Of a stretch of 64,000 nt of DNA, positions 18,124-64,000 are shown one piece after another. The stretch spans positions 558,001 to 622,000 of the forward strand of contig NZ_CP109013.1 of the NCBI RefSeq assembly GCF_036226745.1. The letters run 5' to 3'. The notes under the pieces were generated by a model. The model had not been told where the DNA came from. It ran no database searches and saw only the letters and a program-made list of their open reading frames with translations. Position 1 is the first letter of the stretch. Every line of letters begins with the position of its first letter. The position numbers were made by a program, and so were the translations under genes. Source of the DNA: Streptomyces sp. NBC_00683. GTDB lineage: Bacteria; Actinomycetota; Actinomycetes; Streptomycetales; Streptomycetaceae.

Positions 18124-18156
18124 CATAGGGGTTTCGGGAGACCGCTCAGGGGACGC
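18124..18156 (+). promoter_or_regulatory. Paired AGGGG boxes upstream of rmlA (putative LAL operator)
   Basis: CATAGGGGTTTC (18124-18135) and CTCAGGGGACGC (18145-18156) are in the same orientation, 21 bp apart or two helical turns. The second ends 31 bp before the rmlA start. The same CATAGGGG core recurs at 28513-28522 and 31115-31126. Recognition by the LAL regulator at 35059 is inferred from recurrence. Confidence 0.45.
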
Positions 18157-18187
18157 AGGCGGGGATTCTCCGTGAAATATGGGATGC

Positions 18188-19255
18188 ATGAAATCATTGG
18201 TACTCGCCGGTGGTTCCGGCACCCGCCTGCGCCCGATCACGCACACCTCGGCAAAACAGCTGGTTCCGGTAGGTAACAAACCAGTTCTCTTCTACGGGCT
18301 CGAGGCCATTGCCGCCACCGGTATCACCGAAGTGGGCATCGTCGTGGGCGATACGGCGGACGAGATAGAGAAGGCCGTCGGTGACGGTTCGCAATTCGGT
18401 ATCGAAGTCACCTACATCCGGCAGGAAGCCCCCCTGGGCCTCGCCCACGCGGTCCTCATTTCCCGCGACTTCCTCGGCGACGAAGATTTCCTGATGTACC
18501 TGGGCGACAACTTCATCGTCGGCGGGATCACGGACGTCGTCGACTCCTTCCGCAGGGACCGGCCGGACGCCCAGGTTCTGGTCACCCGGGTCCCCGACCC
18601 TTCCCGGTTCGGCGTCGCCGAGCTGGATTCCGCCGGGCATGTGGTGAGGCTGGAGGAGAAGCCGCAGCAGCCCAGGAGCGACCTGGCGCTGGTCGGTGTC
18701 TATCTGTTCACCCCCGCGGTCCACCGGGCCGTGCGGGCGGTCAAGGCGTCGTGGCGCGGCGAGCTGGAGATCACCGACGCCATCCAGTGGCTCATCGACG
18801 AGCGCCTGCGGGTCCGGTCGACGACGATCACCGGCTACTGGAAGGACACCGGGAACGTCGACGACATGCTGGAGGCCAACCGCACCGTGCTGGAGACCCT
18901 GGTCCCCGGGATCGAGGGCGAGACGGACGACGCGACGCGGATCATCGGCCGGGTACGGATCGAGGCCGGCGCCGTGGTCCGAGGATCCCGGATCGTCGGA
19001 CCGGCCGTCGTGGGCGCGGGAGCGGTGGTCATCGACTCCTACCTCGGGCCGTTCACCTCGGTCTCCGAGAACTGCCACATCGAGGACAGCGAAATAGAGT
19101 TCTCGATCATCCTGGCCGACTCGTCGATCAGAGGCGTGCACCGCGTCGAGGCGTCCCTCATCGGCCGTTCGGTCGAAGTGACCCCGGCTCCGCGGGTGCG
19201 CGCGGCCCACCGGCTGGTACTCGGCGACTACAGCAAGGTGCAGATCTCCTCATGA
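18188..19255 (+). CDS. rmlA: Glucose-1-phosphate thymidylyltransferase
   Basis: 355 residues, the long StrD-like form found in antibiotic clusters. The nucleotidyltransferase signature is LVLAGGSGTRLRPITHTSAKQ near residue 4. FLMYLGDNFI, GELEITDAIQWLI and TGYWKDTGNVDDML follow the sugar-nucleotide site pattern. Residues 240-355 form a hexapeptide-rich left-handed helix ending GDYSKVQI. It makes dTDP-glucose, the first step to the cluster's deoxysugar. ATG 18188 gives the conserved MKSLVLAGG. The stop overlaps the rmlB start as ATGA. Confidence 0.95.
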   Translation: MKSLVLAGGSGTRLRPITHTSAKQLVPVGNKPVLFYGLEAIAATGITEVGIVVGDTADEIEKAVGDGSQFGIEVTYIRQEAPLGLAHAVLISRDFLGDEDFLMYLGDNFIVGGITDVVDSFRRDRPDAQVLVTRVPDPSRFGVAELDSAGHVVRLEEKPQQPRSDLALVGVYLFTPAVHRAVRAVKASWRGELEITDAIQWLIDERLRVRSTTITGYWKDTGNVDDMLEANRTVLETLVPGIEGETDDATRIIGRVRIEAGAVVRGSRIVGPAVVGAGAVVIDSYLGPFTSVSENCHIEDSEIEFSIILADSSIRGVHRVEASLIGRSVEVTPAPRVRAAHRLVLGDYSKVQISS

Positions 19256-20238
19256 CCACCAAGATCCTTGTGACGGGTGGCGCCGGATTCATCGGCTCGC
19301 ACCACGTGCGCACCCTCCTCGGCCCCGAAGGACCGGACGGGGTCACGGTCACGGTGCTGGACGCCCTGACGTACGCCGGCAACACCGCCAATCTCGCCCC
19401 TGTCCGGGATCATCCCGGCTTCCGCTTCGTTCACGGTGACATCCGGGACAGCGCTCTCGTGGACCGGCTGGTCCCGGAACACGACCAGATCGTGCACTTC
19501 GCCGCCGAGTCCCACGTCGACCGTTCGATACTCAGCGCGACCGAGTTCGTCACCACGAACGTCCTGGGGACGCAGACGCTCCTGGACGCCGCGCTGCGCA
19601 GCGGTCTGGAGACGTTCGTCCACATCTCCACCGACGAGGTGTACGGCTCCGCCGCCGAGGGCTCCTGGCCCGAGACCGATCCGCTCCGGCCGAACTCGCC
19701 CTATGCGGCCTCCAAGGCGGCGGCCGAACTGCTGGCCATCGCCTGCCACCGTACGCACGGCCTGGACGTGCGGGTGACGCGCTGCTCCAACAACTTCGGC
19801 CCGTTCCACTACCCCGAGAAGCTCATCCCCCTGTTCATCACGAACCTCCTCGACGGACGGCCGGTTCCGTTGTACGGGGACGGCCTCCACATCAGGGACT
19901 GGCTGCACGTCGACGACCACGTCCAGGGCATCGAGCTGGTCCGCACCAAGGGGATCCCCGGCTCGGTCTACAACATCGGTGGCGGCACCGAACTCACGAA
20001 CAAGGATCTGACGGGGCGGCTGCTCGCGGCCTGCGGGGCCGGCTGGGAGCACGTCGAGTACGTCGAGGACCGCAAGGGCCACGACCGGCGGTACTCGGTG
20101 GACTGCACCAGGATCCGCGACGAGCTGGGTTACGTACCGCGCGCCGACTTCGACGGAGCCCTCGCCGAGACCGTGGCCTGGTACCGGGCGAACCGTGCCT
20201 GGTGGGAACCGCTGAAGAAGCGGTCGGCGCCGTCATGA
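19252..20238 (+). CDS. rmlB: dTDP-glucose 4,6-dehydratase
   Basis: 328 residues of the extended SDR family. The NAD motif is ILVTGGAGFIGSH; the active site has STDEVYG and YAASKAAAE (Tyr and Lys); SNNFGPFHYPEKLIP and RDWLHVDDH are signature blocks. It converts dTDP-glucose to dTDP-4-keto-6-deoxyglucose, the branch point for the 2,3-dehydratase, 3-ketoreductase and 3-dehydratase encoded at 28.5-32.7 kb. It is coupled to rmlA by ATGA and ends just before a strong bidirectional hairpin. Confidence 0.95.
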   Translation: MTTKILVTGGAGFIGSHHVRTLLGPEGPDGVTVTVLDALTYAGNTANLAPVRDHPGFRFVHGDIRDSALVDRLVPEHDQIVHFAAESHVDRSILSATEFVTTNVLGTQTLLDAALRSGLETFVHISTDEVYGSAAEGSWPETDPLRPNSPYAASKAAAELLAIACHRTHGLDVRVTRCSNNFGPFHYPEKLIPLFITNLLDGRPVPLYGDGLHIRDWLHVDDHVQGIELVRTKGIPGSVYNIGGGTELTNKDLTGRLLAACGAGWEHVEYVEDRKGHDRRYSVDCTRIRDELGYVPRADFDGALAETVAWYRANRAWWEPLKKRSAPS

Positions 20239-20251
20239 CCGCGCGCGCCGT

Positions 20252-20291
20252 GAGCAGGCCCCTGTCCGGGTGGGTGGACAGGGGCCTGCTC
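20252..20291. terminator. Bidirectional terminator between convergent operons
   Basis: A perfect 16-bp stem, GAGCAGGCCCCTGTCC (20252-20267) and GGACAGGGGCCTGCTC (20276-20291), encloses an 8-nt loop. It lies between the end of rmlB and the end of the convergent permease gene, so it can serve both transcripts. Confidence 0.85.
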
Positions 20292-20307
20292 GTGCCGCCG
20301 GAAGACT

Positions 20308-21282
20308 CTAGACGGGGACGCCGACCGCAGCGGGTACCGGCGGGCGCCGGCGTCGTCCCTCGCGTGCGATGCGCGGGTCGATCACCGGGTAGAGGAGGTC
20401 GATCAGCAGGTTGACCACGGCGAACACCGTGGCGCCGAGCAGCACCAGGGCCTGGACGACCGGAAGGTCCTGCCCGCTGACCGCCTGCGTGGTGAGCCGG
20501 CCGAGCCCGTCGCGCGAGAACACCGTCTCGACGACCACGGAACCCGACAGCATTCCGCCGACCAGCAGCCCGACCATGGTCAGGGCAGGCAGGACGGCGT
20601 TGCGCAGCGCGTGCCGCACATGCACGACCGGCCGTGTCACGCCTTTCGCCCGTGCCGTCTCCACGTAGCCCTCCAGGAGTTCCGACTGCAGGCTCTTGCC
20701 CAGCAGCTGGGCGATGAGCGCGCCGGCGGGCAGCGCGAGGGTGAGTGCCGGCAGGACCATGCTCTGCGGTCCTTCGTTGCCGATCGCCGGGAAGACGTGC
20801 CATCGGAACGAGAACTGCTGCAGGAGCAGCAGGCCCACCCAGTACGAGGGCAGCGACACACCGAGCGGTGGGAGGCTCATCAGCAGCTGCTGCAGCCAGC
20901 GCCACCGCACCAGCGAGGCGCCCACCGCGAGCGCCGTGCCGAGCAGGAGGCCGAGCCCCAGACCCGCGCCGGTGATCTGCGCGGTCTGGGGCAGGGCCTG
21001 ACCGATGAGGTGGGAGACCTGTTCCCGGCTCTGGATCGACTGGCCGAGATCGCCCTGCAGGACCGCGCCGAGCCGGCTCACGTACTGCTCGGTCATCGGG
21101 CGGTCGAGGCCGAGGTCGGCGCGCATCGCGTCGAGCTCGGCGGGGCTGAGGCTGGAGTTGGGTCCGGCCATCACCGCGACCGGATCGCTGGGCAGCGCGA
21201 ACAGCACCACGAAGGAGATGGTGAAGGCGGCCCAGATCACGAAGACGGCCTGGCCGGCCCGTGACAGCAGATAGCGCGCCAT
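20308..21282 (-). CDS. Dipeptide/nickel-type ABC transporter permease (DppB-like)
   Basis: 324 residues with about six membrane helices, starting at FVIWAAFTISFVVLFAL. GLDRPMTEQYVSRLGAVLQGDLGQSI is the usual periplasmic loop of DppB proteins. The EAA loop EGYVETARAKGVTRPVVHVRHALRN contacts the ATPase. It pairs with the DppC-like permease at 27404, but is separated from it by the ATPase, binding protein, PPOX, glycosyltransferase and monooxygenase genes of the same operon. It starts 4 nt after the monooxygenase stop. Confidence 0.92.
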   Translation of the reverse strand: MARYLLSRAGQAVFVIWAAFTISFVVLFALPSDPVAVMAGPNSSLSPAELDAMRADLGLDRPMTEQYVSRLGAVLQGDLGQSIQSREQVSHLIGQALPQTAQITGAGLGLGLLLGTALAVGASLVRWRWLQQLLMSLPPLGVSLPSYWVGLLLLQQFSFRWHVFPAIGNEGPQSMVLPALTLALPAGALIAQLLGKSLQSELLEGYVETARAKGVTRPVVHVRHALRNAVLPALTMVGLLVGGMLSGSVVVETVFSRDGLGRLTTQAVSGQDLPVVQALVLLGATVFAVVNLLIDLLYPVIDPRIAREGRRRRPPVPAAVGVPV

Positions 21283-21286
21283 CGGT

Positions 21287-22318
21287 TCAGCTGCTCCCGT
21301 CCAGTGCCCGGCTCGGGAGCTCGCGTCGGAGCACCGGGGCGATTTCGTCGAAGAAGAGCTCCAGCGTGGCGTCGTACTGTGCGCGGCTGAGGATCTCGCC
21401 GTCGACGTGCAGATGGAGGAGCTCGTGGCCGAACTCCTGGTGCTGGCCGATGACTTTGTCGATGATCTGCTGGGGGCTGCCCACCAGGACGGAACTGTGC
21501 TCGATCCAGTCCTCGACGGTGTCGTACGCGATCGAGCCGCCGTCGAAGGTGCGGTTGACGGCCAGGCGTGCCTCGAAGACGGGGCGGTAGGCGGCGACGG
21601 CCTCCTGGGAGTTCCGCGCTCCGAAGTAGCCGGCCGTACCGGCGCCGACGAGGGCCCGGCGGGGGTCGTGCCCGTAGGAGGCGAAGCGTTCCCGGTAGTG
21701 GTGGATCAGCTTGGCGTAGCGGTCGAGCGGACCGCTGCCGTTGGAGGAGAAGACCGGGTCGCCGTGCTGGGCGGCGAAGTCGACCGATCCGGTGCTGCTG
21801 CCGCTGCCGTGCCAGATCCGGATGTTCTTCTGGTACGGCCGCGGCAGGGCCTCGGCGTTCTCCAGGGAGCGGCCGAGGCGGCCTTCCCAGGTGACGTCGT
21901 CCTCGGTCCACAGCCGCCGGAACAGCGCGTAGTTCTCCCGGAGCAGGTCCCACTGGTTCTCCGGGGTGATCCCGAACAGTTTGCTGGACCTGGGGTAAGC
22001 GCCCTTGGCGACGATGAGGTCGAGGCGGCCGCCGGAGAGGTTGTCGAGCGTGGAGTAGTCCTCGAACGCCCTCAGCGGGTCGAGCATGCCGAGCGTCGTC
22101 ACGGCGGTGAAGAGCCGGATCTTCGAGGTCCGCGCGGCGATGTTGCTCAGGAGGACCGGTGGGGAGGACGACACGGCGGGGCGGTCGTGGCGTTCGCCGA
22201 TCCCGTAGGCGTCGAACCCCCATTCCTCGGCGCGTACCGCGTAGTCGATGAGCTCCTTGAGCTGGAGCTCGTCCGGCTTGTCCTGCCGTGGCAGATGAGG
22301 GAGGAGGAGGAATTTCAT
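21287..22318 (-). CDS. LLM-class flavin-dependent monooxygenase
   Basis: 343 residues of the luciferase-like fold: MKFLLLPHLPRQDKPDE, EEWGFDAYGIGERHD, IRLFTAVTTLGMLDPLRAFEDYSTLDNLSGGRLDLIVAKG, and the C-terminal VLVGSPQQIIDKVI. FMNH2 or F420 dependence cannot be told from the motifs. The start overlaps the glycosyltransferase stop as ATGA. It could tailor the ansamycin, or handle the solute brought in by the ABC transporter of the same operon. Confidence 0.85.
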   Translation of the reverse strand: MKFLLLPHLPRQDKPDELQLKELIDYAVRAEEWGFDAYGIGERHDRPAVSSSPPVLLSNIAARTSKIRLFTAVTTLGMLDPLRAFEDYSTLDNLSGGRLDLIVAKGAYPRSSKLFGITPENQWDLLRENYALFRRLWTEDDVTWEGRLGRSLENAEALPRPYQKNIRIWHGSGSSTGSVDFAAQHGDPVFSSNGSGPLDRYAKLIHHYRERFASYGHDPRRALVGAGTAGYFGARNSQEAVAAYRPVFEARLAVNRTFDGGSIAYDTVEDWIEHSSVLVGSPQQIIDKVIGQHQEFGHELLHLHVDGEILSRAQYDATLELFFDEIAPVLRRELPSRALDGSS

Positions 22319-23499
22319 CGCTGCTCCCGCTTGAGGTGGTTCTCGATCTCGTCGACCGCGAGCGCGGGCCCGCCCGATGCGCGGGTGTGCTCCTGCAGCT
22401 CGCGTACGCGCCGGGCGACGGCCTCGTCGCCCGCCACCGAGAGCACGGCCTCACGCAGCGCCGCCGCATCGAGGTTCTCGGGCCGGACGACGGTGCCGAT
22501 GCCCAGTTCGGTCACCCGCTCCGCGTAGGGGAGGACGTCGACGCCCTGCGGCACCACCACGACCGGTGTGGCGGTGTGGAGGGCTTCGGAGAGGCTGCCG
22601 GTGCCGCCGTGGGTCACGAATGCGGCGGCGTGTTCGAGGACCTTCACATGGTGTATCCAGCGGTGGACCTCGACATTGGGCGGCAGGGGTGCCAGCTCGG
22701 CCGGGTCCAGGCCGTTGCCCACCGAGATCACCGCGTGCAGGGGCTGGTCGCGGAAGGCTTCGACGGCGGTTCGGAAGAAGCCGATGTGCTGGTTGTTGAC
22801 GGTTCCGAGCGAAATCAGCACGGTGGGCAGACCGTCGGCCGGCGGCTGCCAGTCGTCGAGGAAGTCCCGGTCCCCCAGGCTCGGCCCGATGAACACGAAG
22901 CGTTCGTCGAAAGTCTCGTGGGCGGGCTGGAACTGCCGGGGCACGAAGACGACGGTGAGCTCGTCCGGGACCCGCCGGGTCCACAGGAACTCCTCGACCC
23001 GGTCGGCGATGCCGTATTCGTCGAGGAACGCGGAGATCTCGTCCACCGGGTCGGTGAGGGCGAAGTCCGGTGCGAGGGCGAAGATCCGCTCGAAGTACGA
23101 GTAGTGCGCGTTGGACACGACACTCGGCGCGAGGTGGACGGCGGGGAGCTGCCAGCTGTGGCGCAGTACGCGGCCGGCCTGGAAGGCGGCCTCGTCGTAG
23201 GCGAGGAGGTCCGGACGGTCGTCGCCGTAGTGCGCCTCGACGGCCCGCAGAATGGCGACGTTCTCCCGGAAGAACGCCTCGGTCGGGGTGATGGAGGTGT
23301 CGTTGGCCAGGCTCTCGAGCGGCTTCACCGAGGTGTAGGTCAGCACGTCGGCGCCGGCCCCGCGCACCTTCTCGGCGAACTCCTCGATCGTCACGTAGGT
23401 GACCTGGTGGCCGCGCCGGACCAGTTCGGAGACCAGTGCCAGCTTGGGGAAGAGATGTCCGTTGGACGGTATGTCGATGATCAGTGCTCGTATGGACAT
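22315..23499 (-). CDS. MGT-family glycosyltransferase (GT1)
   Basis: 394 residues with two Rossmann domains (GT-B). The N-terminal acceptor half has PSNGHLFPKLALVSELVRRGHQVTYVT. The C-terminal donor half has TVLISLGTVNN, VEVHRWIHHVKVLEHAAAFVTHGGTGSLSEAL and TPVVVVPQGVDVLPYAERV, the nucleotide-sugar motif of UGT/MGT enzymes. AAGGAGGA lies upstream of ATG 23499. It is the only glycosyltransferase seen, so it is the best candidate to attach the trideoxysugar to the aglycone. A role in self-resistance, as for OleD/MgtA, is the alternative. Confidence 0.9.
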   Translation of the reverse strand: MSIRALIIDIPSNGHLFPKLALVSELVRRGHQVTYVTIEEFAEKVRGAGADVLTYTSVKPLESLANDTSITPTEAFFRENVAILRAVEAHYGDDRPDLLAYDEAAFQAGRVLRHSWQLPAVHLAPSVVSNAHYSYFERIFALAPDFALTDPVDEISAFLDEYGIADRVEEFLWTRRVPDELTVVFVPRQFQPAHETFDERFVFIGPSLGDRDFLDDWQPPADGLPTVLISLGTVNNQHIGFFRTAVEAFRDQPLHAVISVGNGLDPAELAPLPPNVEVHRWIHHVKVLEHAAAFVTHGGTGSLSEALHTATPVVVVPQGVDVLPYAERVTELGIGTVVRPENLDAAALREAVLSVAGDEAVARRVRELQEHTRASGGPALAVDEIENHLKREQR

Positions 23500-23516
23500 G
23501 GGAGTCCTCCTTGGCG

Positions 23517-23912
23517 TCAGGTCCGGGGAAAGGCGATGATCTTCTCGGGCACGACCCGCACGGCGACCCGCACCAGGCCGTCCGGCGGTGCGTGGGTCTC
23601 CCCCAGGTACTTGAGGGCCAGTTCGTCGGACAGCTCCTGTGCGCCGTCCTCGGAGAGGTGCGCGATCCCGCGCACCTCCACCGAGCTGTACGGGTTCGCC
23701 GCATCGAACACCGAGACACTGATCCGCGGATCGCGTGCCAGGTTCCTTGCCTTGCCGCGCGCCACCGGGGCCACGAACAGCAGGGTGTCGCCGTCCCGCT
23801 TCACCCACACCACCGAGGACTGCGGGCTTCCGTCGGGGTTCACGGTGGCGATGACCGGGAAGTTCCGGCCGTCGAAGAGCGCACGGGTTCGTTCGTCGAG
23901 CGTCACCGGCAT
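23517..23912 (-). CDS. PPOX-class FMN/F420-binding protein
   Basis: About 131 residues of the pyridoxamine-5'-phosphate-oxidase-like split barrel: MPVTLDERTRALFDGRNFPVIATVNPDGSPQSS fits the family start, then LFVAPVARGKARNLARDPRISVSVFD and EVRGIAHLSEDGA. ATG 23912 is preferred since AAGGAGG lies 11 nt upstream; ATG 23933 is an alternative. Such proteins reduce or bind flavins, F420 or haem. It precedes the glycosyltransferase and monooxygenase on the same transcript. Confidence 0.8.
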   Translation of the reverse strand: MPVTLDERTRALFDGRNFPVIATVNPDGSPQSSVVWVKRDGDTLLFVAPVARGKARNLARDPRISVSVFDAANPYSSVEVRGIAHLSEDGAQELSDELALKYLGETHAPPDGLVRVAVRVVPEKIIAFPRT

Positions 23913-23974
23913 GGCGACGATCGCCTCCTTCATCAGTCGTTCGGTACGTGGGTGGGAGCGGGGACGGCGGACCG

Positions 23975-25591
23975 TCAGGAGAGCCAGACGGGCGTCAGCG
24001 GGTTCAGCCCGGCGCCCGCGCCCAGCGTGAGTCCGTGCACCTGCTTGCCGGTGGCGACGACGGTCGTCTGCTCGAACACCGGGAGGTAGACGACCTCTTC
24101 GACGATGCGTCGCTGGGCCTGGGCCAGGATCTTGTTGCGGGCGGCGGGGTCACCGGTCGCGACCTGCTCCTGGAGCAGCGGCTCCAGCGTCGTGTCGTTG
24201 ATCCGGTAGTAGTTCGGCGGCGCTCCGGAGAAGGAGGTGCGCAGCACGTCACCGTCGGCCTGGGTTCCGTTGGTCCAGAAGAAGTCGTACTTCTCCTGCT
24301 TGAGGCCGTCGAGGATCTGCAGGCCGGTCTGCTGGAGCAGCTTCAGCTCGATGCCGTTCTCGGCGAGCTGGGCCTTGATGAGTTCCAGGGTCTTCTGGCT
24401 GGCGGTGTAGCCGGGGAACCAGCCGACGACGAGGCTGAGCTTCTTGCCGTCCTTGGCCCGTACGCCGTCGCCGCTGCGGGTCCAGCCGGCGGTGTCCAGC
24501 AGCTTGCCCGCTTCGGTGGGGTCGTGCTTCACCACGGAGCCGAGGTCGGTGTAACCGGGCGTGGTGGACGCCAGCACGCTGGTCGCGGGCTTGAAGTCCG
24601 GGCTCAGTACGGCGTCGCGTACCTCCGTCCGGTCGACCGACAGGGCGATGGCCTTGCGGACGCGTACGTCGTCGAGCGGCTTGCGTGCGGAGATGGGCAC
24701 CAGCCCCCACACCAGGCCGGGGTTGGGCCGGGTGACGAGCTTCAGACCGTTGTCGCGTACGGACGCGATGTCGCCCGGAGGTACGTCGCTGACCGCCTGG
24801 ACCTGCCCGGACTCGAGGCTGCCGGTGCGGACGCTCGCCTCCGGCACCACCTTGAAGACGACCTTGTCGAGGTAGGCGTCTCCGGTGTGCCGGACACTGC
24901 CGGGCGACCAGTCGTACCCCTTGCGCTTGGAGAGGGTGACCTGGCCGGGTGCGAAGGTGTCCAGGACGAAGGGGCCCGAGCCGATCACGTTGTCGACGCG
25001 CTTGTCCCAGGGGAGCTTGAGCGTGGCCGGGGCGACGAGGGACAGCCCGGTCTGGGAGGCCGCGACGAGGAAGGGCGCGTTGGGCTTGCTGAAGGAGACC
25101 GTCACCGTCGCCGGGTCGACGACCGAGGCTTCGGTGAACGCGCTGACCGTCGGCGCGATCGAGGGGTTCACCTTCGCCTTGTTCGCGACCAGGTCGTCGA
25201 AGTTGGCCTTGACCACCTCGGCTGTCAGCGGGGTGCCGTCGGAGAAGGTGACGCCTTCGCGGAGGTGGAAGGTGAACTCGGTGGCGTCCTTGTTGATCTC
25301 CCAAGACTTCGCGAGCCACGGCACGATCTTGCCGGTCTCGGGGTCCTGGTTCACGAGCGAGTCGAAGAGCTGCCGGTTGACGTAGACGGCACCCGTGTCG
25401 GTGAACGCACGGGGGTTGGCGCTCTGCGGGGACTGCTGGAGGGCGAGGGTGAGGGTCCCGCCCTTCTTCGGTGCGCTGTTGGCGGCGTCGCCGGACGCGG
25501 CGTCGTCCGTGCCGCCGCAGGCGGTGAGCAGGACGGTCAGGCCGGCGGCCAGGGCCAGGGTGGAGCGGAGTCTGCGTGCTCGGGTGTACAT
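23975..25591 (-). CDS. Extracellular solute-binding lipoprotein (SBP family 5, Dpp/Opp-like)
   Basis: 538 residues. The signal peptide RRLRSTLALAAGLTVLL ends in the lipobox LTAC, so the protein is a lipid-anchored exported receptor. KKGGTLTLALQQSPQSANP, LRFTFH-type FTFHLREGVTFSDGTPLTAEVV and VRKAIALSVDRTEV are standard family 5 blocks. It would capture peptides or other small solutes for the adjacent ABC transporter. The ligand is unknown. AAGGAGA precedes the start. Confidence 0.92.
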   Translation of the reverse strand: MYTRARRLRSTLALAAGLTVLLTACGGTDDAASGDAANSAPKKGGTLTLALQQSPQSANPRAFTDTGAVYVNRQLFDSLVNQDPETGKIVPWLAKSWEINKDATEFTFHLREGVTFSDGTPLTAEVVKANFDDLVANKAKVNPSIAPTVSAFTEASVVDPATVTVSFSKPNAPFLVAASQTGLSLVAPATLKLPWDKRVDNVIGSGPFVLDTFAPGQVTLSKRKGYDWSPGSVRHTGDAYLDKVVFKVVPEASVRTGSLESGQVQAVSDVPPGDIASVRDNGLKLVTRPNPGLVWGLVPISARKPLDDVRVRKAIALSVDRTEVRDAVLSPDFKPATSVLASTTPGYTDLGSVVKHDPTEAGKLLDTAGWTRSGDGVRAKDGKKLSLVVGWFPGYTASQKTLELIKAQLAENGIELKLLQQTGLQILDGLKQEKYDFFWTNGTQADGDVLRTSFSGAPPNYYRINDTTLEPLLQEQVATGDPAARNKILAQAQRRIVEEVVYLPVFEQTTVVATGKQVHGLTLGAGAGLNPLTPVWLS

Positions 25592-25679
25592 GACGGGGTT
25601 GTCTCCTTGTGGTGCTTCTCGAAGGGTGCGGGGGGTGGTTCTGCGTCAAAGGGGCGGGCGTGAGCGGGTCGTCCGGTGC

Positions 25680-27404
25680 TCAGAGGCGTGCGGCGGACGG
25701 TTGTCCGGTCTGCCCGAGCTGCTCACGGCCGGGGATGGCGGCCAGCAGAGCCTCGGTGTACGGATGGCCCGGACGTGTGAGGACCTGCTCGGCGGGGCCT
25801 TCCTCGACGAGGCGGCCGGCGCGCATGACACCGACCCGGTGGGCGATCTGCCGCACCACGGCCAGGTCGTGGGAGATGAACAGACAGCTGAGTCCGAGCC
25901 GGGCCTGGAGCTCGGCGAGCAGGTCGAGGATCTGGGCCTGGACGGAGACGTCCAGTGCGGACACCGGCTCGTCGCAGACCAGCAGGCCCGGGTTGAGCGC
26001 GAGGGCCCGTGCGATCGCCACGCGTTGCCGCTGGCCGCCCGAGAGTTCGGAGGGCCGGCGCTCCAGGGCCGTGGCGGGCAGGGCGACGAGGTCGATGAGT
26101 TCGGCGGCCCGCTGGGTGCGCTGACGGCGCGTCCCCAGTCCGAACGAGGTGAGGGGGTCGGCGACGATCTGGCCGACCGTCAGCCGGGGGTTGAGGGCCG
26201 CGTAGGGGTTCTGGTGGACGATCTGCATCCGGCGGCGCAGCGCGCGCAGTTCCCGCCCTCGGTGGGCGGTGACGTCCTCGCCGTCGACGTACACCCGGCC
26301 CGAGGTCGGGGTGGTGAGCCGCAGCAGCAGCCGTGCCACGGTCGACTTGCCCGATCCGGACTCGCCCACCAGCGCGAGCGTCTCGCCGCGCGGGACCGTC
26401 AGGCTGACGTCGTCGACGGCGCGCAGGACCGTGCGCTCGCCGGCCGCGCGCGGCAGCCGGTACTCCTTCACCAGGTGCTCGGCGCTGATCTGTACCGGGC
26501 CCGTGGGAGCGGCGAAGGCGTCGGAAGCCTCCGGTGCCGGGCCGCCCGGTTCCCGGACGGTGGCCGCGGGGCGTGCCGGAGGTCGGGGCCCCCGGCCCGG
26601 GGCCGCGGCGACGAGTGCCTTCGTGTACGGGTGCGTCGGGGCGGACACGATGCTTTCCGGCAGACCGTCCTCGACGACCTCGCCCTGTGCCATGACCAGG
26701 ACGCGGTCGCTCCGTTCGGCGGCGACCCCGAGGTCGTGCGTGATCAGCAGGACGCTCGTGCCCGCGGCACGGGTCAGCGACTGGATGTGGTCGAGGATCT
26801 GGCGCTGCACGATGACGTCGAGCGCGCTGGTCGGCTCGTCGGCGACGATCAGTCGTGGCCGGGCGGCGACGGCGATGGCGATGAGTACGCGTTGGCGCAG
26901 ACCGCCGGAGAGCTCGTGGGGGAACTGACCGGCGCGCCGGCGTGGATCGGGTACGCCCGCGTCGGCCAGCAGATCGAGTACGGCGGCGCGTGCGCCGCGC
27001 CGGTCGGTGATCCCGTGGGTGATCAGCGCCTCGGCCACCTGCCGCCCGATGCGGTGCACGGGGTTCAGCGCGGTTCCGGGGTCCTGGGGGATCAGGGCGA
27101 TCTCCCGGCCGCGCAGGCCTCGCAGGTGCCGTTCGCCCAGGCGGGTGAGGTCCTGGCCGCCGAAGCCAATGCTGCCGCTGCTCAGTTCGGCGGCGGGCGG
27201 CAGGAGGCCGAGCACGGCGTGCGCCGTCGTGGACTTTCCCGATCCGGACTCGCCGACGACCGCGACGGTCTCGCCCGGGGCGACGGTGAAACTGACGGAC
27301 CGTACGGCTTCGACGACACTGCGGCGCAGCCGATAGCGCACGACGAGGTCGCGGACGTCGAGGAGCGGGGCGGGTTCGGAGCCGGGAATCGTTGCGGAGC
27401 TCAT
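25680..27404 (-). CDS. Fused double ABC ATPase (DppD-DppF type)
   Basis: 574 residues holding two complete ATPase domains. Each has Walker A (GESGSGKST, near residues 44 and 345), a signature (LSGGLRQRV, then LSGGQRQRV) and Walker B (RLIVADEPTSALD, then LLVCDEPVSALD). The oligopeptide C-terminal motif HPYTKAL / HPYTEALL follows each. Fused ATPases of this type energise dipeptide/nickel-class importers. The ATG at 27404 shares one base with the upstream permease stop (TGATG). Confidence 0.93.
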   Translation of the reverse strand: MSSATIPGSEPAPLLDVRDLVVRYRLRRSVVEAVRSVSFTVAPGETVAVVGESGSGKSTTAHAVLGLLPPAAELSSGSIGFGGQDLTRLGERHLRGLRGREIALIPQDPGTALNPVHRIGRQVAEALITHGITDRRGARAAVLDLLADAGVPDPRRRAGQFPHELSGGLRQRVLIAIAVAARPRLIVADEPTSALDVIVQRQILDHIQSLTRAAGTSVLLITHDLGVAAERSDRVLVMAQGEVVEDGLPESIVSAPTHPYTKALVAAAPGRGPRPPARPAATVREPGGPAPEASDAFAAPTGPVQISAEHLVKEYRLPRAAGERTVLRAVDDVSLTVPRGETLALVGESGSGKSTVARLLLRLTTPTSGRVYVDGEDVTAHRGRELRALRRRMQIVHQNPYAALNPRLTVGQIVADPLTSFGLGTRRQRTQRAAELIDLVALPATALERRPSELSGGQRQRVAIARALALNPGLLVCDEPVSALDVSVQAQILDLLAELQARLGLSCLFISHDLAVVRQIAHRVGVMRAGRLVEEGPAEQVLTRPGHPYTEALLAAIPGREQLGQTGQPSAARL

Positions 27405-28369
27405 CAGGCGGCCCTCGGATCGCTGTCGAGGGCGCGTGCCACCCGGTTGGAGGCGACCACGGTCGCGGCGACGGCCAGGCCGGGGAAGGTGGTCAGCCAC
27501 CAGGCGACCCGCAGTGAGTCACGGCCCTCCGAGACCAGTGCGCCCCACTCCGGTGTCGGCGGCTGCACTCCGTAGCCGAGGAAGCTGAGCGCGGAGACCG
27601 CGAGGATCGCGGTGCCGAACTCCAGGGCGGCCAGCGCCCAGACCGGTCCGAGGGTGTTCGGCAGGACGTGCCGTGTCAGGACGCGAGGCCACCGTGCTCC
27701 GCCGGAGTGCGCCGCTTCCACGTACAGGCTCTCGCGGACCTTGAGTACTTCGGCGCGCATGATGCGGGCGCAGGTGGCGATGCTCGTCAGACCGACCGCG
27801 ATGGCCGCGTTCCGGGTGCCGGGTCCCAGCGCCACGATCAGCACCAGGGACAGCAGCAGACCGGGTATGGACAGCAGCATGTCCACCAGCCGCATGATCA
27901 CCATGTCCGTGCTTCCTCTGAGGAATCCGGCCAGGAGGCCGAGCAGTGCTCCCGCGGTCAGTCCGATCAGGGTGGCGATCAGGGCGGACAGCAGGGACAC
28001 TCCGGCCCCGTGCACGAGTCGCGTGAACAGGTCCCGGCCGAGCTGATCGGTCCCCAGAAGGTGCTCGGCGGAGGGACCGAGCAGCCGGTCCGGGGTGTCC
28101 ACGGCGAGGGGATCCCGCGAGGTGAACAGTTCGGGGGCGAGCGCGGCGGTGACTGCGGCGAGGAGCCAGAGCACCGCCAGCGCCAGTCCCGGCCGGACGG
28201 CCGGCAGCCGCCGGGTGCCGGTGCGGAGCCGTAGCCGGGGCTTCGAGGTCCCGTCGCCGGAGCCCTTCGGCGACGCGGCACGTTCGGCGGGTGGGGTCTC
28301 GGGGGTACGAGCCCCGTCGGCACCCGGCCCGGTCACCGCGCCCGGCAGGGAGTCGGGTAGCAATCTCAC
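27404..28369 (-). CDS. Dipeptide/nickel-type ABC transporter permease (DppC-like)
   Basis: About 321 residues. A long Pro/Gly-rich N-terminal tail precedes PGLALAVLWLLAAVTAAL, the first helix; LLGTDQLGRDLFTRLVHGAGVSL is the DppC hallmark; the EAA loop is LYVEAAHSGGARWPRVLTRHVLPNT. GTG 28369 is preferred since GGAGAGG precedes it; a TTG at 28402 also opens the frame. It is the first gene of a seven-gene minus-strand transcript. The AGGGG boxes at 28499-28522 lie 130-155 bp upstream. Confidence 0.88.
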   Translation of the reverse strand: MRLLPDSLPGAVTGPGADGARTPETPPAERAASPKGSGDGTSKPRLRLRTGTRRLPAVRPGLALAVLWLLAAVTAALAPELFTSRDPLAVDTPDRLLGPSAEHLLGTDQLGRDLFTRLVHGAGVSLLSALIATLIGLTAGALLGLLAGFLRGSTDMVIMRLVDMLLSIPGLLLSLVLIVALGPGTRNAAIAVGLTSIATCARIMRAEVLKVRESLYVEAAHSGGARWPRVLTRHVLPNTLGPVWALAALEFGTAILAVSALSFLGYGVQPPTPEWGALVSEGRDSLRVAWWLTTFPGLAVAATVVASNRVARALDSDPRAA

Positions 28370-28498
28370 GGCCTCTCCAGATGTGCGGACTGTCGTTCGC
28401 AATACCGCGCCCGGCAGCTCGGAAGGCCGCGCTTGGTGAATCGCAGGAACTGTCGATAAAACTGCGTCGGCGAAACTCTGTCGGGAAATCAGGCTTTC

Positions 28499-28522
28499 GA
28501 CCCCCCTGCACCCACCCCTATG
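28499..28522 (-). promoter_or_regulatory. Paired AGGGG boxes upstream of the ABC/glycosyltransferase operon
   Basis: On the minus strand CATAGGGGTG (28513-28522) is followed by TGCAGGGGGGTC (28499-28510), with AGGGG cores 12 bp apart. They sit in the 201-bp gap between the sugar 3-dehydratase stop and the permease start and point toward the permease. The core equals that found at rmlA and at the 3-ketoreductase/2,3-dehydratase promoter. Confidence 0.42.
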
Positions 28523-30987: not shown

Positions 30988-31079
30988 TCCACGACCTCCA
31001 TCGGGCTGACCGGTCGCGCACCGGGGAATTATTCGATTCATTGAATTCGGCATGACGGTAGGCAAGTCCTTCCTGGACC

Positions 31080-31126: not shown

Positions 31127-31213
31127 CGTCCCCTGATTATCCGCACCGCATGGCCCGGCTAATCAGCATCCCGGCATAGTGGGCGACATTATTGCGTGCG
31201 ACAGGGAGGCCCG

Positions 31214-34646: not shown

Positions 34647-35058
34647 ACGGATGCTCCTCGATGGCTGTCGATGACGGAGCCGATCGTGAGCGCCGGGTGG
34701 GCCGAGTTCAATGGAAACAGTGGGTCTTAGGGGGATGCGGACGGCTTCACCCGACATCGGAGACCGCCACCCCATGGGTACCCCCCTGAACATTGGCCGG
34801 AATGCCCCAGTAGGCAGCCCGTGGGTGGCCCGTTCCCGGGGAGTAGGCGATGTCCGACCATCATGGAATCCGGGCAGGGGGAGCGCGCAATGGGGCCTGT
34901 TCGATGCCCTGCACCGCACAGACGGTCGATCACGCACAGCCCGTACGGCCACGGACACAGGTGGCCGGGAGCACGGTCGAGGTCACGCACCTGGCCAGTT
35001 ACGCCTGCTGCGGGTCGCAGACTCCGTTGATCACGAACATGACGTCCTGGGGGATCGA
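34647..35058. other. 412-bp interval between the oxidase and LAL genes, with boxes and a small open frame
   Basis: The first half holds two AGGGG boxes. The second half has an open frame starting at ATG 34850 with GGGGAG 6 nt upstream. Codons 34961-35059 in that frame have G or C at 31 of 33 third positions and encode a Ser/Thr/Cys-rich stretch including ASYACCGSQTPLITN. The frame runs on to 35233, over the LAL start. It may be a leader peptide, a small gene, or chance. Confidence 0.3.
34726..34790. promoter_or_regulatory. Two inverted AGGGG boxes between the multicopper oxidase and LAL genes
   Basis: CTTAGGGGGATG (34726-34737, plus strand) and TTCAGGGGGGTA (34779-34790, minus strand) face each other about 54 bp apart. 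They lie 80-144 bp upstream of the oxidase start and well upstream of the proposed LAL start. The sequence agrees with the boxes found at three other cluster promoters. Confidence 0.38.
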
Positions 35059-39218
<4,160 letters not shown>

Positions 39219-39240
39219 GGTCCGTCGGCCGCCCACCGGG

Positions 39241-41681: not shown

Positions 41682-41686
41682 GGCTC

Positions 41687-59400: not shown

Positions 59401-62400
59401 CCGACACCACACCAGGCCCCACACCACCACCCGCCACCACCGACACACCAGCCAACGCACCACCACGACCCGCAGCCACCACCACCGCCCGGTGCTCCAG
59501 ACCCGCCCGCCCCACAGCAAGCGAATGACCCACCTCGGCAACCGTCACGTCCGAACGCCCGACGAAGGTCCGGAGCCGTTCGGCCTGGGCCCGCAGGGCA
59601 TCCGCCGTGCGGGCCGACACCACCCACGGCACGGCGGCAGGCTCGGAGGCGGGTGCTGCTGTTTCCTGTGGCTCTCCGGACACGAGCGCGGGGGCCTGCT
59701 CCAGAATCACGTGAGCGTTCGTGCCGCTCACACCGAACGAGGAGACACCCGCCCTCCGCGGACGGTCCACCTCCGGCCACGGCCTGGACTTCGTCAGCAA
59801 CTCCACAGACCCCGACGACCAGTCCACCTTCGACGACGGCTCATCCACATGCAGCGTCCGCGGCAACACACCATGCCGAATCGCCTGCACCATCTTGATG
59901 ACACCCGCAGCACCTGCCGCAGCCTGGGCGTGCCCGATGTTCGACTTCAACGACCCCAACCACAGCGGCTGGTCCTGCGCACGGTCCTGCCCGTAGGTCG
60001 CCAGCAGAGCCTGCGCCTCGATCGGGTCACCCAGCGTCGTCCCGGTGCCGTGGCCCTCCACCGCATCGACGTCGGCGACCGACAGCTCTGCGCCCGCCAG
60101 TGCCTCGCGGATCACCCGCTCCTGCGACGGACCGTTCGGCGCTGTCAGACCGTTCGACGCACCGTCCTGGTTGACCGCCGACCCACGGACGACCGCCAGA
60201 ACCTCGTGCCCCAGCCTCCGTGCGTCCGAAAGCCGTTCCAGGAGCAGCACACCGGCGCCCTCGGACCAGGCAGTGCCGTCGGCAGCCTCGGCGTAGGGCC
60301 TGCATCGGCCGTCTGCCGCCAGGGCGCGCTGCCGGGAGAACTCCACGAAGGACGTCGGCCGGGACATCACGGCCACGCCGCCGGCCAGGGCCATCGCGCA
60401 GTCGCCGTTGCGCAGCGCCTGCGCCGCCAGATGCAGCGCCACCAAGGACGACGAGCACGCCGTGTCCACGGTGACGGCAGGGCCCTCCAGACCCAGCGTG
60501 TACGCGACGCGCCCCGACGCCACACTGCCCGCGTTGCCCGTGCCCAGGTAGCCCTCGAGACCGTCGGGGACGCGGGCGAGCCCGGTGGCGTAGTCGTGGT
60601 ACATCACACCGCTGTAGACGCCCACACTGCTGCCGTGCAGTGACGTGGGATCGATGCCCGCGCGCTCGAACACCTCCCACGACACCTCCAGCAGCAGCCG
60701 CTGCTGCGGATCCATCGCCAGCGCCTCACGCGGGGATATGTCGAAGAATCCCGCGTCGAAGGATCCCGCGTCGTGCAGGAAGCCGCCGTGTCTGGCGTAC
60801 GACGTGCCCACGTGCTCGGGATCCGGGTCGTAGAGGCCGTCCAGGTCCCAGCCCCGGTCCGCAGGGAACGGGGAGATCGCGTCCACACCGTCGGTGACGA
60901 GTCGCCACAGGTCGTCGGGGGACGTGACTCCGCCGGGCAGCCGGCAGCCCATGCCCACGATCGCAATGGGGTCGTCGCTCGGGTCCGTGCGACGGGCGCG
61001 GACGGCGGGTGCGGCGGCGGAGGCGCGGCCGAGGTGGTGGCCGCCGAGGAGTCGCACGCGGAGGTGGCGGGCGACCGCGGCCGGGGTCGGGTGGTCGAAG
61101 GCCACGGTGACCGGGAGGTGCAGGCCGGTGGCCGAGGTGAGGCGGTTACGGAGTTCGACGGCGGTCAGTGAAGTGAATCCGAGGTCCTTGAACGGCCGGT
61201 CGGCGCGTACGGCGTCACCGGGTTCCTGTTGTATTCGGCCGACCTCGTCGCGAACGAGGTCGAGAAGGAGACGGTCCTGGTCGGCCTCGGCGAGACCGGT
61301 GATGAGCCGGCGCAGCTCCGCCGATGTCGTGTTGTCCGGTGCGGAGTTGCGTGCGGGGGCATCGATCAGACCGCGCAGGGGTGGCGCGATGGTGGCGGGG
61401 TCCAGGGTGGCGCCGCCGAGGGCCTCGTTGTCCAGACGCATCACGATGAGCGACGTCCGGTCGGCGAGGTGCGCGGCGTCGAACATCGCTGTGCTCTGCT
61501 GCTCGGTGAGGCGTCCGAGACCTGCCGGGGCGGCCCGGCCGTCCCCTTCGTACGGGCCTGTGCGCAGGGAGAGGGCGGGGAGACCGCGGGCCGCCCTGTG
61601 CTGGATGAGGGCGTCGAGGAACACGCCGGCTGCCGCTTCCTCGGCATGGTCGGACGAGCCGAGCACACCGGTGGCCGAGGAGTGGACGACGAAGGCGGAC
61701 AGGTCGGTGTCCACGGTGAGTTCGTGGAGGTTGAGCGCGCCTTCCAGGGTGGATTTCAGTCCGGGGGGAACCGCGCCCGGCGTGTGGACGACGGCGTCCG
61801 GCCGGTGCCCCGGGCGGGACAGCAGGGCGGCGAGAGCGCTCCGGTCGGCGATGTCGCAGGCCGAGAGGGTCACCTCGGCGCCGTGCGCGGTCAGTTCGGC
61901 CGCGAGCGCGGCGGCTGTACGGTCCCCTGCGCCCCGCTCGCTGATGAGGAGCAGGCGGCGGACTCCGTGGCCGCCGACGAGGTGACGGGCCACGGTGGCT
62001 GCGGTCGGGCCGTCGGCGCCGGTGACGAGCACTGTCCCCCGGGGGGCGAAGGTGGCGGGCTGCTCGGGATCGGCGACCGCGGACACCCGTGAGGCCCTCG
62101 GGCGCAGGGGGACGCCCGAACGTACGACGACCTGGGGTTCTCCGGAGGCCAGCGCGTCGGCCAGGGCGGGCGACGGGTCGTCGTCCTCGATGTCCAGGTC
62201 GATGAGGACGAGGCGGCCGGGGTGCGCGGCCTGGGCGCTGCGGACGATGCCCCACAGGGGTGCCTGGATCAGGTCGGTGACGTCGTCCTCGGCCCCGACG
62301 GCGACGGCCCCTCGGGTGGCGATGACGAGGATGGAGGCGGATGTGCGGTCGTCGTCCAGCCACGCCTCCAGTTGCGCGGTGAGTGCGCGGACGGTGTCCT

Positions 62401-64000
62401 GTACCGCTTCGGGGAGCGGGCCCGACCTGCGGACTCCTGCTCCGCAGGACAGCACGGCCACGTCCGGGACATGGGCGTCGGCGCCGGCGGTGTCGCGCAG
62501 TGCGTCAAGCGTCGGGTACCGGCCGACGGTCTGTCCGAGCGCGCGCAGATGACCTGCGACGCCGAATGCGTCGGCGCCGATGACGGCCCAGGTGCGCGCG
62601 GGCGACTGCGGTACGGGGACGGAGGACAGGGGTATCCAGTCGAGCCGGAAGAGCTGCTCGTAGTGACTTCCGTTGGCGGCGCGCAGCCTGGCGGGCCTTT
62701 CGAGGAGCACATGGCGGGTGATCTTGCCGGATGCCGTGCGGGGAATCCGGTCGATCTCATAGAGCTCCTCCGGCACCTTGAAGTAGGAGAGCCGGTCGCG
62801 GCAGGCGGTGAGGAGTGCCTCGGGGTCGAGGCCTTCGGGACCCGGTACCAGGAAGGCCACCGGTACTTCCCCGAGGACGTCGTGGGGTTTGCCCACGACG
62901 GCGACGTCGGCGGTGCCGGGGACCGAGCGCAGCACCTCCTCGACCTCTCCGGGGTGGATGTTCTCGCCACCGCGGATGATGAGTTCCTTGATGCGGCCGG
63001 TGATCGTGAAGTAGCCGGCGCCGTCCCGCCGGGCCAGGTCGCCGGTGTGGTACCAGCCGTGCCGCAGGGCTTCTGCGGTTGCTTCCGGCTGGTTGTGGTA
63101 GCCGAGCATGACGCTCGGACCCCGGACCCAGACCTCCCCCTCCTCGCCCTCGGCGGCGTCGAGGCCCGTCTCCGGGTCGACGATGCGCACGCCCAGGCCC
63201 GGCACGGGCAGTCCGCAGGAGCCTTCGACCCGGGCGCCGGTGGGCCAGTTGATGGTGATGGAGCCGCACGTCTCGGTGCTGCCGTACGCGTCCAGCAGGG
63301 GTGCGGCGAACGCCTCCTCGAACGACCGGCGCAGCGCCGCGGTGGTAACGGCCCCGCCGACCAGGCACATGCGGAGGTCGGGGGCGTCGAAGTCTTCCTC
63401 CTTGGCGGCGCGCACCAGTTGGTGGTACATCGTGGGGACACCGGCCAGGAACGTCGAGGACTCCTCGCGCAGGGCGTCGAGTACGTCCGCCGCGGCGAAA
63501 CCGTCGACGATGCGCGCGGTGGCTCCCACGGCCGTGACGCCCAGTACGCAGACGATGTGGGAGAGGCTGTGGAAGAGGGGCAGGGGCCACAGGACCCGGT
63601 CGTCGGCACTGAGTGCGGGGATGGGCGCGTAGCACGCGGCCACGGACCAGAGGCAGTTGCGCTGGGTGGACAGGACTCCCTTGGGCCTGCCCGTGGTGCC
63701 GGAGGTGTAGAGCATCCAGGCGGGGTCGTCCAGGCCGAGGTCGTCCCGGGCGGGGCTCGACGGGGTGGTCGTCGCAAGTTCCTCGAACGAGTCCGTGCCG
63801 GGGGGCACGCCCCCGTCGCCGGTGACCAGGATCCGCAGGTCGGTCCGGCTGCCCAGGAGTGTGGCCAGTTGCTCCGCGTGTGCGGGGTCCGTGATCACGG
63901 CGCGTGCGCCGCTGTCGTCGAGGAGGTACGTCAGCTCGGCTTCGGTGACTCTCGGGTTGAGGGGTACGCCGATCACACCAGCCCGGGTGAGGGCCAGGTA
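50456..64000 (-). CDS. Type I PKS: CoA-ligase loading module plus extension modules 1 and 2 (5' end outside window)
   Basis: 4514 residues are visible; the frame is open at the window edge, and perhaps 60-80 N-terminal residues are missing. Order: CoA ligase 1-440 ([38 protein letters not shown]); degenerate KR about 450-860; ACP 883-983 (GFTSL); KS1 1005-1435, AT1 1537-1840, DH1 1898-2120 ([15 protein letters not shown]), KR1 2190-2600 ([20 protein letters not shown]), ACP1 2627-2711; KS2 2738-3160, AT2 3267-3570, DH2 3624-3840 ([15 protein letters not shown]), KR2 3935-4330, ACP2 4350-4430; docking tail. Both ATs have GHSQG and YASH (methylmalonyl). The ligase would load an aryl acid, AHBA by context. 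Confidence 0.95.
51520..52026. repeat. KR-encoding repeat, copy in module 2
   Basis: Partner of 45945-46446. Module 1's KR does not share this block; its NADPH region (about 56880-56935) is clearly divergent. Confidence 0.82.
53396..54311. repeat. AT-encoding repeat, copy in module 2
   Basis: Third member. It carries small changes not shared by the others, such as ESQG for EAQG near 53670 and GDGVE for GEGVE near 53763. Confidence 0.83.
58578..59487. repeat. AT-encoding repeat, copy in module 1
   Basis: Fourth member, in large part base-for-base the same as the module 4 copy at 42310-43217 although 16 kb away. Confidence 0.85.

Follow-up and report, generated by a model that had tools for sequence, protein, structure and literature searches.

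A candidate gene cluster for a sugar-bearing pentaketide ansamycin, with a multicopper oxidase gene, in Streptomyces sp. NBC_00683

What would be made by a polyketide synthase (PKS) of only four extension modules whose genes lie next to those for a 2,3,6-trideoxysugar and a multicopper oxidase (MCO)? This question is raised by a locus of Streptomyces sp. NBC_00683 that lies mostly within one window, i.e., the whole stretch of 64,000 nucleotides analysed here (bases 558001–622000 of a single-contig 8.52 Mb genome), to which 18 kb of left and 48 kb of right flank were added (coordinates above 64000 carry the window numbering on past its right edge). The cluster extends beyond the window to about 74.9 kb, where genes for 3-amino-5-hydroxybenzoate (AHBA) formation and SARP-type and MarR regulators are situated, and its gene content looks like a complete set for a small sugar-bearing ansamycin antibiotic. 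We propose, with a probability of roughly 0.6, that the product is a glycosylated pentaketide ansamycin with the carbon chain of the cebulactams, the ring of which would be hydroxylated by an MhpA homologue and subsequently oxidised outside the cell by the MCO. Pentaketide ansamycins are few, with seven scaffolds counted in the main text of PMC13000494, and a literature search in which most subscription journals were not covered (and which is thus weak evidence) returned no published gene cluster for a glycosylated one.

Assembly line, starter unit and extender units

The PKS, its release enzyme and the AHBA genes are arranged as follows.

37881–39218, plus strand: class II DAHP synthase, RifH-like (TIGR01358, 534 bits, below the cut-off of 615; start approximate)
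40896–41681, minus strand: amide synthase, RifF/GdmF-like (PF00797; best solved relative GdmF, 8ot2, 224 bits; NAT-type Cys, His and Asp recognised by eye)
41687–44803, minus strand: PKS_C, module 4, KS-AT(YASH)-ACP, no reductive domain (Pfam and motifs)
44831–50341, minus strand: PKS_B, module 3, KS-AT(YASH)-DH-KR-ACP (Pfam and motifs)
50456–about 64222, minus strand: PKS_A, CoA-ligase loading module and modules 1 and 2, KS-AT-DH-KR-ACP (Pfam and motifs)
64535–65227: HAD phosphatase (RifM role)
65329–66471: Gfo/Idh oxidoreductase (RifL role)
66468–67634: AHBA synthase, RifK-like (633 bits to the solved AHBA synthase 1b9h)
67795–68229: type II dehydroquinase, AroQ/RifJ-like
68265–69176: ROK kinase (RifN role)
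69016–70308: AroB-like frame, RifG-like
70295–71098: AroE-like, RifI-like

The original prediction for this DNA had described a pentaketide ansamycin cluster with a CoA-ligase loading module, exactly four extension modules, a RifF-like amide synthase, a DAHP synthase and an MhpA-like monooxygenase, and had expected an AHBA synthase gene to the right of the window and no PKS modules upstream of the loading module. All of this was borne out. Exactly four extension modules are present (four KS DTACSSS motifs over three genes), three with DH-KR and the last without reductive domains. PKS_A has Pfam matches for one AMP-binding domain (PF00501), three KR, two KS, two AT, two DH and three carrier domains, and its loading module runs from the AMP-binding domain over a KR-like domain to an ACP; the KR-like domain is not odd in this position, since an inactive loading KR0 is described for tropansamycin in the main text of PMC13000494. 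PKS_C gave no thioesterase match and its protein ends after the ACP. PKS_A starts at about 64222, i.e., 222 bases beyond the window edge, and an in-frame upstream stop at 64262–64264 means that nothing is fused upstream. Additional modules in that direction were rejected, since the frame is closed there and the adjoining genes are RifM-, RifL- and RifK-like.

Every RifG–N role has a candidate gene once the DAHP synthase is counted. The cluster thus holds an AHBA synthase with aminoshikimate genes, a CoA-ligase loading module and an amide synthase, and no thioesterase. Because the AHBA gene set is present and no further modules are, sequence evidence strongly supports a pentaketide ansamycin as the product.

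As for the extender units, all four ATs carry the GHSQG and YASH motifs (4/4), the latter of which we take to be the methylmalonyl motif. Identity is 95–98% among the four ATs of the window and 92–96% among those of Streptomyces sp. CB02058, while it is 79–80% between the two species. This pattern indicates that each lineage has homogenised its ATs on its own, and the same extender is therefore expected at all four positions. The predicted chain is AHBA (C7) plus four C3 units, i.e., C19, which by count equals the carbon chain of cebulactam A3 and not that of tetrapetalone. Tetrapetalone A is C26H33NO7, with a C20 aglycone that needs one C4 (ethylmalonyl-type) unit, and no AT set apart for such a unit was found among the four, which are near-identical and all YASH. 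The earlier claim of methylmalonyl ATs throughout was hence upheld, as was the caveat that near-identical ATs would point to a product akin to tetrapetalone but distinct from it; the tetrapetalone-like label attached to the cluster fails on carbon count (C19 as in cebulactam A3, not C20) and survives in so far as the MCO supports tetrapetalone-like chemistry. Cebulactam A3 has the formula C19H23NO5; it bears four methyls as well as an OH at C9, adjoining the ring, and a conjugated diene spanning C-4/C-7 is invoked in its formation (main text of PMC13302746). That it contains four C3 units is our own count, based on the four methyls on the C1–C9 chain leaving no other room.

The chain foreseen earlier stands in its composition (AHBA plus four C3) but its first C=C became doubtful, since the module 1 dehydratase (DH1) is altered. 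In the window, CB02058 and Actinacidiphila paucisporea alike (3/3 clusters), the GY of the GYxYGPxF motif is deleted (leaving LTVDYGPAF) and LPFxW is changed to LAFSW; in CB02058, the G of HxxxGxxxxP is D as well. From these changes, DH1 is probably weak or dead, so that a benzylic OH, which would be a natural sugar acceptor, is likelier than the first C=C. In tropansamycin, DH1 and KR0 are both called inactive (main text of PMC13000494).

At both ends of the assembly line, the Asp beside the pantetheine serine is lost: the last ACP of PKS_C (about 41.8 kb) reads GFISL vs. the usual GFDSL (GFISL in CB02058 and GFVSL in A. paucisporea), and the loading ACP reads GFTSL.

Deoxysugar genes, glycosyltransferase and multicopper oxidase

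To the left of the PKS lie the genes for sugar formation and tailoring, interspersed with an Opp-type importer and a luciferase-like (LLM) flavin monooxygenase.

18179–19255, plus strand: RmlA, glucose-1-phosphate thymidylyltransferase (TIGR01208, 444 bits, cut-off 320)
19252–20238, plus strand: RmlB, dTDP-glucose 4,6-dehydratase (TIGR01181, 412 bits, cut-off 365; ATG start at 19252)
20308–21282, minus strand: Opp/Nik-type ABC permease B (NCBIfam Opp/Nik permease matches, below cut-offs)
21287–22318, minus strand: LLM flavin monooxygenase (PF00296; TIGR04036 and TIGR03858 below cut-off; overlaps the glycosyltransferase gene)
22315–23499, minus strand: macrolide-family glycosyltransferase (TIGR01426, 378 bits, cut-off 260; ATG at 23499 behind an AGGAGG site)
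23975–25591, minus strand: Opp/Nik-type substrate-binding protein (TIGR04028, 334 bits, below the cut-off of 468)
25680–27500, minus strand: fused Opp ATPases D-F (NCBIfam Opp/Dpp/Nik ATPase matches)
27404–28402, minus strand: Opp/Nik-type ABC permease C (NCBIfam matches, below cut-offs)
28571–29944, minus strand: NDP-4-keto-6-deoxyhexose 3-dehydrase, for C-3 deoxygenation (NF011936, 658 bits, cut-off 423; 3bcx)
29941–31065, minus strand: NDP-sugar 3-ketoreductase, Gfo/Idh/MocA (PF01408; best solved relative the sugar 3-ketoreductase 3rbv, 382 bits)
31196–32665, plus strand: NDP-hexose 2,3-dehydratase (PF03559, 538 bits; EvaA 4j7g, 489 bits)
32739–34646, minus strand: MCO, o-aminophenol-oxidase-like (PhsA profile, 691 bits; 3gyr, 504 bits)
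39241–40899, minus strand: MhpA-like FAD monooxygenase, proposed ring hydroxylase (NF004829, 662 bits, cut-off 390; PF01494)

RmlA, RmlB, the EvaA-like 2,3-dehydratase, the 3rbv-like 3-ketoreductase and the PMP-type 3-dehydrase (the best solved relative of which, 3bcx, is a CDP-4-keto-6-deoxyhexose 3-dehydrase) together lead to a 2,3,6-trideoxy-4-keto hexose. No epimerase was found among the genes scanned (16.5–75 kb), so the sugar is probably D-configured. The glycosyltransferase is the sole one found in the region. Among solved relatives, CalG2, CalG4 and EspG2 come nearest to it (340–319 bits), followed by the oleandomycin glycosyltransferase 2iya (268 bits). At 1e-60 it has matches in 202 of 392 same-genus genomes, the only close copy being that of CB02058 (86%) and the others reaching at most 44% among the matches listed. 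Since this cluster-specific glycosyltransferase sits near conserved sugar genes, glycosylation by the trideoxysugar is supported by the gene content.

Neither the MCO nor the Opp/LLM operon (20308–28402) had been listed in the original prediction. The MCO has 635 residues and four copper motifs (HVH, HDH, HPMHVH and HCHILEH). Its N-terminus, MPNRRQFVIGSAAAAVATVSGG (MPNRRQF...), was read by eye as a twin-arginine (Tat) signal, and the copies of CB02058 and Actinomadura roseirufa begin with MPSRRQF. Of the 575 residues after the leader, residues 1–571 match phenoxazinone synthase 3gyr (504 bits), the matched part being preceded by about 60 residues with the Tat-like signal here vs. 10 residues in 3gyr. 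We therefore regard the MCO as a putative exported, o-aminophenol-oxidase-like enzyme.

Among the 392 same-genus genomes, which also include CB02058, an amide synthase match occurs in 28 (own included), 12 of which have an MCO match at 1e-20 and two of which (own and CB02058) have a copy of at least 82%. The next-best copies (50–52%; G030, G377, G301, G350 and G362) are either on a contig other than that of the amide synthase or separated from it by 0.6 Mb or more, with the proviso that in draft genomes an MCO and an amide synthase on different contigs could still be close. A pattern-based scan of genome contigs yielded 252 MCO relatives, and among the best 80 of these, the loci of which were examined, identities were 82% (CB02058), 69% (A. 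paucisporea), 66% (A. roseirufa), 58% (A. azurea) and at most 55% for the rest. In a class-wide draw of 394 genomes, three had matches at a threshold of 1e-172, i.e., the own genome, G767 (54%) and G729 (63%).

In CB02058, the whole cluster from IclR to MarR is found inverted and in the same order at 70–93% identity; in the accessible part of PMC10143065, this strain figures only as one member of a bioassay panel. Contig 68 of A. paucisporea carries the MCO (69%), amide synthase (77%), deoxygenation genes, glycosyltransferase (74%), LLM and Opp genes, while its contig 34 has AHBA genes beside a PKS; RmlA and RmlB were not present in the stretches read. In A. roseirufa, the MCO (66%) is accompanied by the 2,3-dehydratase, 3-ketoreductase, RmlA and RmlB, and an amide synthase (70%), AHBA synthase (80%) and glycosyltransferase (56%) also occur, with the parts on different contigs. 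By gene order and identity, two further clusters (CB02058 and A. paucisporea) thus appear syntenic, and a third (A. roseirufa) is consistent with them but broken up.

Protein searches suggest more carriers of the MCO together with the glycosyltransferase. On contigs of equal listed size, the respective identities were 85% and 91% in Streptomyces sp. cmx-18-6, 66% and 81% in Yinghuangia sp. ASG 101, and 64% and 59% in Spirillospora sp. CA-255316; on contigs of differing size, they were 63% and 58% in Microbispora sp. NBRC 16548, and 58% and 57% in both Actinomadura litoris and A. parmotrematis. Other MCO carriers, e.g., Actinomadura sp. LD22 and Actinoallomurus acaciae, lack the glycosyltransferase among the matches listed.

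A separate observation concerns G377, in which contig 115 (10.8 kb) holds an amide synthase (68%), an MhpA homologue (66%), LAL, SARP-like and DAHP synthase genes and no sugar genes, in a genome without a close MCO (51%) or close glycosyltransferase. This relative is perhaps an unglycosylated form.

Proposed pathway and competing explanations

In the pathway we propose, the AHBA genes would provide the starter, which the loading ligase would activate, the four modules would extend the chain, and the amide synthase would close a beta-ketoamide macrolactam. A largely inactive module 1 dehydratase would leave an OH on the carbon beside the ring, and modules 2 and 3 a conjugated diene next to the 3-ketone. 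For tropansamycin, the proposal is that TpmE, which shares 49.7% identity with Nam7, introduces a C1-OH between the chain-bearing and amide-bearing ring carbons (main text of PMC13000494). As proposed for TpmE/Nam7, the MhpA-like enzyme may hydroxylate the ring ortho to the amide N, yielding an o-amidophenol that would also be a p-hydroquinone. Outside the cell, the exported MCO could then remove two electrons from this o-amidophenol/hydroquinone and so form a quinone or quinone imine. We favour such a quinone-forming role. The glycosyltransferase would place the 2,3,6-trideoxyhexose, probably in the D configuration, on the benzylic OH.

The oxidised ring beside the diene would be set for a transannular reaction, i.e., either a cebulactam-type ether bridge or a [4+3] addition. 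In the latter, addition at C1 and N across the C9–C12 diene would form the C1–C9 and N–C12 bonds, and thereby produce four tetrapetalone-type rings (p-quinol, azepine, cyclopentane and tetramate) in a single step, with methyl replacing ethyl. The redox count would fit, as one two-electron oxidation separates the hydroquinone macrolactam and the p-quinol. Cebulactam-type ether bridging would need none. The tetracyclic p-quinol core of the tetrapetalones arises by an oxidative ring closure. A synthetic transannular [4+3] route has reportedly been worked out by Porco, and we know of this closure of tetrapetalone type only from chemical synthesis. The idea that an MCO-made quinone imine of the glycosylated macrolactam triggers a transannular [4+3] closure to a nor-methyl, C19-aglycone tetracycle of tetrapetalone type is a tentative one, with the odds against it. 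If true, it would represent an enzyme-triggered route to this closure, represented by syntenic clusters in two genera, Streptomyces and Actinacidiphila, and by a fragmented one in Actinomadura. Together with its syntenic relatives, the locus supplies strains known by name, a mass to look for and one candidate enzyme for tetrapetalone-like oxidative ring chemistry, by which the origin of such ring systems becomes open to direct testing.

A number of observations weigh against the proposed product. No compound from this cluster is reported in the literature searched, and the cebulactam authors propose methylmalonyl-CoA together with malonyl-CoA as extenders for their PKS (main text of PMC13302746). 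DH1 keeps its catalytic His and the Asp of DAALH and may not be fully inactive. Of the trideoxysugar genes claimed in the original prediction, those listed above stand, but no 4-ketoreductase was found among the genes scanned, so a finished rhodinose would need one from elsewhere; the 4-keto step, unless it is omitted altogether, must fall to the LLM enzyme or to a gene located elsewhere. The stretches read of A. roseirufa lack a 3-dehydrase. With regard to the MCO, its 690.9 bits against the NCBIfam PhsA equivalog NF045554 do not reach the cut-off of 950, for which reason it is called PhsA-like and not PhsA. An amide synthase match lies within the stretch at 2 of the best 80 MCO loci, and relatives of 58–63% (G729 and A. 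azurea) also occur away from ansamycin genes. Finally, in both A. roseirufa and A. azurea an alpha-L-rhamnosidase gene is found with the LLM and Opp genes, and the Opp/LLM operon, perhaps with the glycosyltransferase inside it, may have another role.

The MCO was consequently rejected as an ansamycin-only gene, as the G729 (62–63%) and A. azurea (58%) copies occur without a close amide synthase. In G729 (probably Thermomonospora umbrina), no amide synthase, AHBA or deoxysugar-gene match was found in the 100 kb read; the locus has PKS-like matches (27–33%), an MhpA-type FAD monooxygenase (34%) and, about 50 kb off, Opp-like genes (32–50%), and our guess is an aromatic (type II) polyketide locus. 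In A. azurea, the MCO lies beside RmlA/B-, LLM- and Opp-like genes on a contig (530 kb) other than that of the AHBA synthase (731 kb), and the best amide synthase match is 37%.

Such other contexts of MCO relatives also favour another explanation, in which the cluster makes an ordinary cebulactam/shengliangmycin-type aglycone, the MCO only converts hydroquinone into benzoquinone or has unrelated phenols as its substrates, ether bridging proceeds without the MCO, and no [4+3] tetracycle is formed. This is a serious contender at somewhat below even odds. The C19 count is the same as that of cebulactam A3, and co-isolated shengliangmycin B (compound 4) is described as the 1,4-benzoquinone form, for which the main text of PMC13302746 names no copper oxidase. 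The cebulactams, Q-1047, goondansamycin and the shengliangmycins are grouped as one scaffold (main text of PMC13000494), and the group shares with the predicted product an AHBA starter, C19 with four methyls, a beta-ketoamide macrolactam and a hydroxylated ring (main text of PMC13302746). However, that same main text has no sugar, glycosylation or copper-oxidase term outside its references, whereas here (as compared by description) both gene types are present, and sugar genes and MCO occur together in three syntenic clusters. Moreover, in G377, with its amide synthase relative at 68%, the MCO reaches no more than 51% and a close glycosyltransferase is likewise absent.

Alternatively, the Opp/LLM/glycosyltransferase operon could serve self-protection or uptake, with the glycosyltransferase inactivating the ansamycin with UDP-glucose in an OleI-like manner instead of transferring the trideoxysugar. 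We consider this clearly unlikely. Its membership in the TIGR01426 MGT family, the oleandomycin glycosyltransferases among its solved relatives, and its overlap with an importer operon of the kind found with rhamnosidases in A. roseirufa and A. azurea agree with such a role; yet CalG2, CalG4 and EspG2 outscore 2iya (340–319 vs. 268 bits), and the only glycosyltransferase found in the region is near a full set of C2 and C3 deoxygenation genes. Since the A. roseirufa Opp/LLM locus carries an alpha-L-rhamnosidase, the operon as such is not claimed as biosynthetic, and the company of rhamnosidase genes in A. roseirufa and A. azurea hints at a module for uptake or catabolism that was recruited by the cluster.

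Tetrapetalones come from Streptomyces sp. USF-4727 and carry a trideoxysugar, D-rhodinose. That the cluster makes tetrapetalone itself, with one AT taking ethylmalonyl-CoA, is very unlikely: sugar genes without an epimerase fit D-rhodinose, the last module would give the 3-methyl tetramate unit stated for tetrapetalones in the accessible part of PMC10161427, and the MCO suits an oxidative ring closure, but the four ATs are alike and separately homogenised in two species, and no crotonyl-CoA carboxylase/reductase gene is annotated in the cluster, to which this search was confined. Tetrapetalones are likewise pentaketide ansamycins (main text of PMC13000494), with a last extender that supplies the 3-methyl tetramate carbon (PMC10161427, accessible part) and a ring oxidation state such as an MCO could set; no tetrapetalone gene cluster was found in the literature search.

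The proposed glycosylated cebulactam-chain product can also be compared with tropansamycin, the tpm cluster of which (Streptomyces sp. LR53) has AHBA genes, three PKS genes, LAL and SARP regulators, a loading-module KR0 (inactive there), a hydroxylase (TpmE) and an amide synthase, as is the case here (main text of PMC13000494). In contrast, its extenders are C3-C2-C3-C3 and its tailoring is P450-based, and terms for sugar, glycosyl, multicopper and laccase are all absent from the same main text.

Regulators, neighbouring genes and minor observations

The remaining features at the edges of and within the cluster are given below.

16510–17316, plus strand: IclR-type regulator at the left edge, membership uncertain (NCBIfam IclR-family matches, all below cut-offs)
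17462–18019, plus strand: NADPH-dependent FMN reductase (PF03358; 93% in CB02058)
34711–37863, plus strand: LAL regulator, AAA_16 and LuxR-type GerE (PF13191, PF00196; 77% in CB02058)
71157–74243: SARP-type regulator, BTAD and AAA_16 domains
74355–74894: MarR regulator

An IclR-type regulator is found at the same place in CB02058 (81%) and A. paucisporea (72%), and the FMN reductase is a possible partner of the LLM monooxygenase. The regulator at 71157–74243 was rejected as a second LAL, the domain scan giving a SARP type (BTAD) with AAA_16. Three open reading frames without a family match were set aside as wrong-frame shadows, i.e., 37935–39371 (minus strand) of the DAHP synthase, 19228–20082 (minus strand) of RmlB and 32742–33896 (plus strand) of the MCO.

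From 11703 to 28402, an aldolase-II-like open reading frame, a GMC oxidoreductase, the IclR regulator, the FMN reductase, the Opp importer and the LLM enzyme resemble an uptake or catabolic set, of which CB02058 and A. paucisporea both retain the neighbouring GMC and IclR genes. In A. azurea and A. roseirufa, LLM and Opp genes lie together with one for an alpha-L-rhamnosidase; the A. azurea group also has an HxlR regulator and adjoins the 58% MCO copy.

Elsewhere in A. azurea, an AHBA synthase (72%) is accompanied by RifL-, RifJ-, DAHP synthase- and RifM-like genes. In the 60 kb concerned there is no PKS_B or PKS_C match and one 31% match to PKS_A, and no close amide synthase was found in the genome, pointing to an AHBA pathway of another kind. 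The frame with which contig 68 of A. paucisporea ends has a DH like that of module 1 fused to a terminus like that of module 4, which may reflect a collapse of the assembly across AT sequences that are nearly identical.

Finally, about 180 kb of the own chromosome far from the ansamycin cluster (positions 7328156–7505686) is crowded on both strands with matches to the KS region of the window, and represents at least one modular PKS cluster of very large size.

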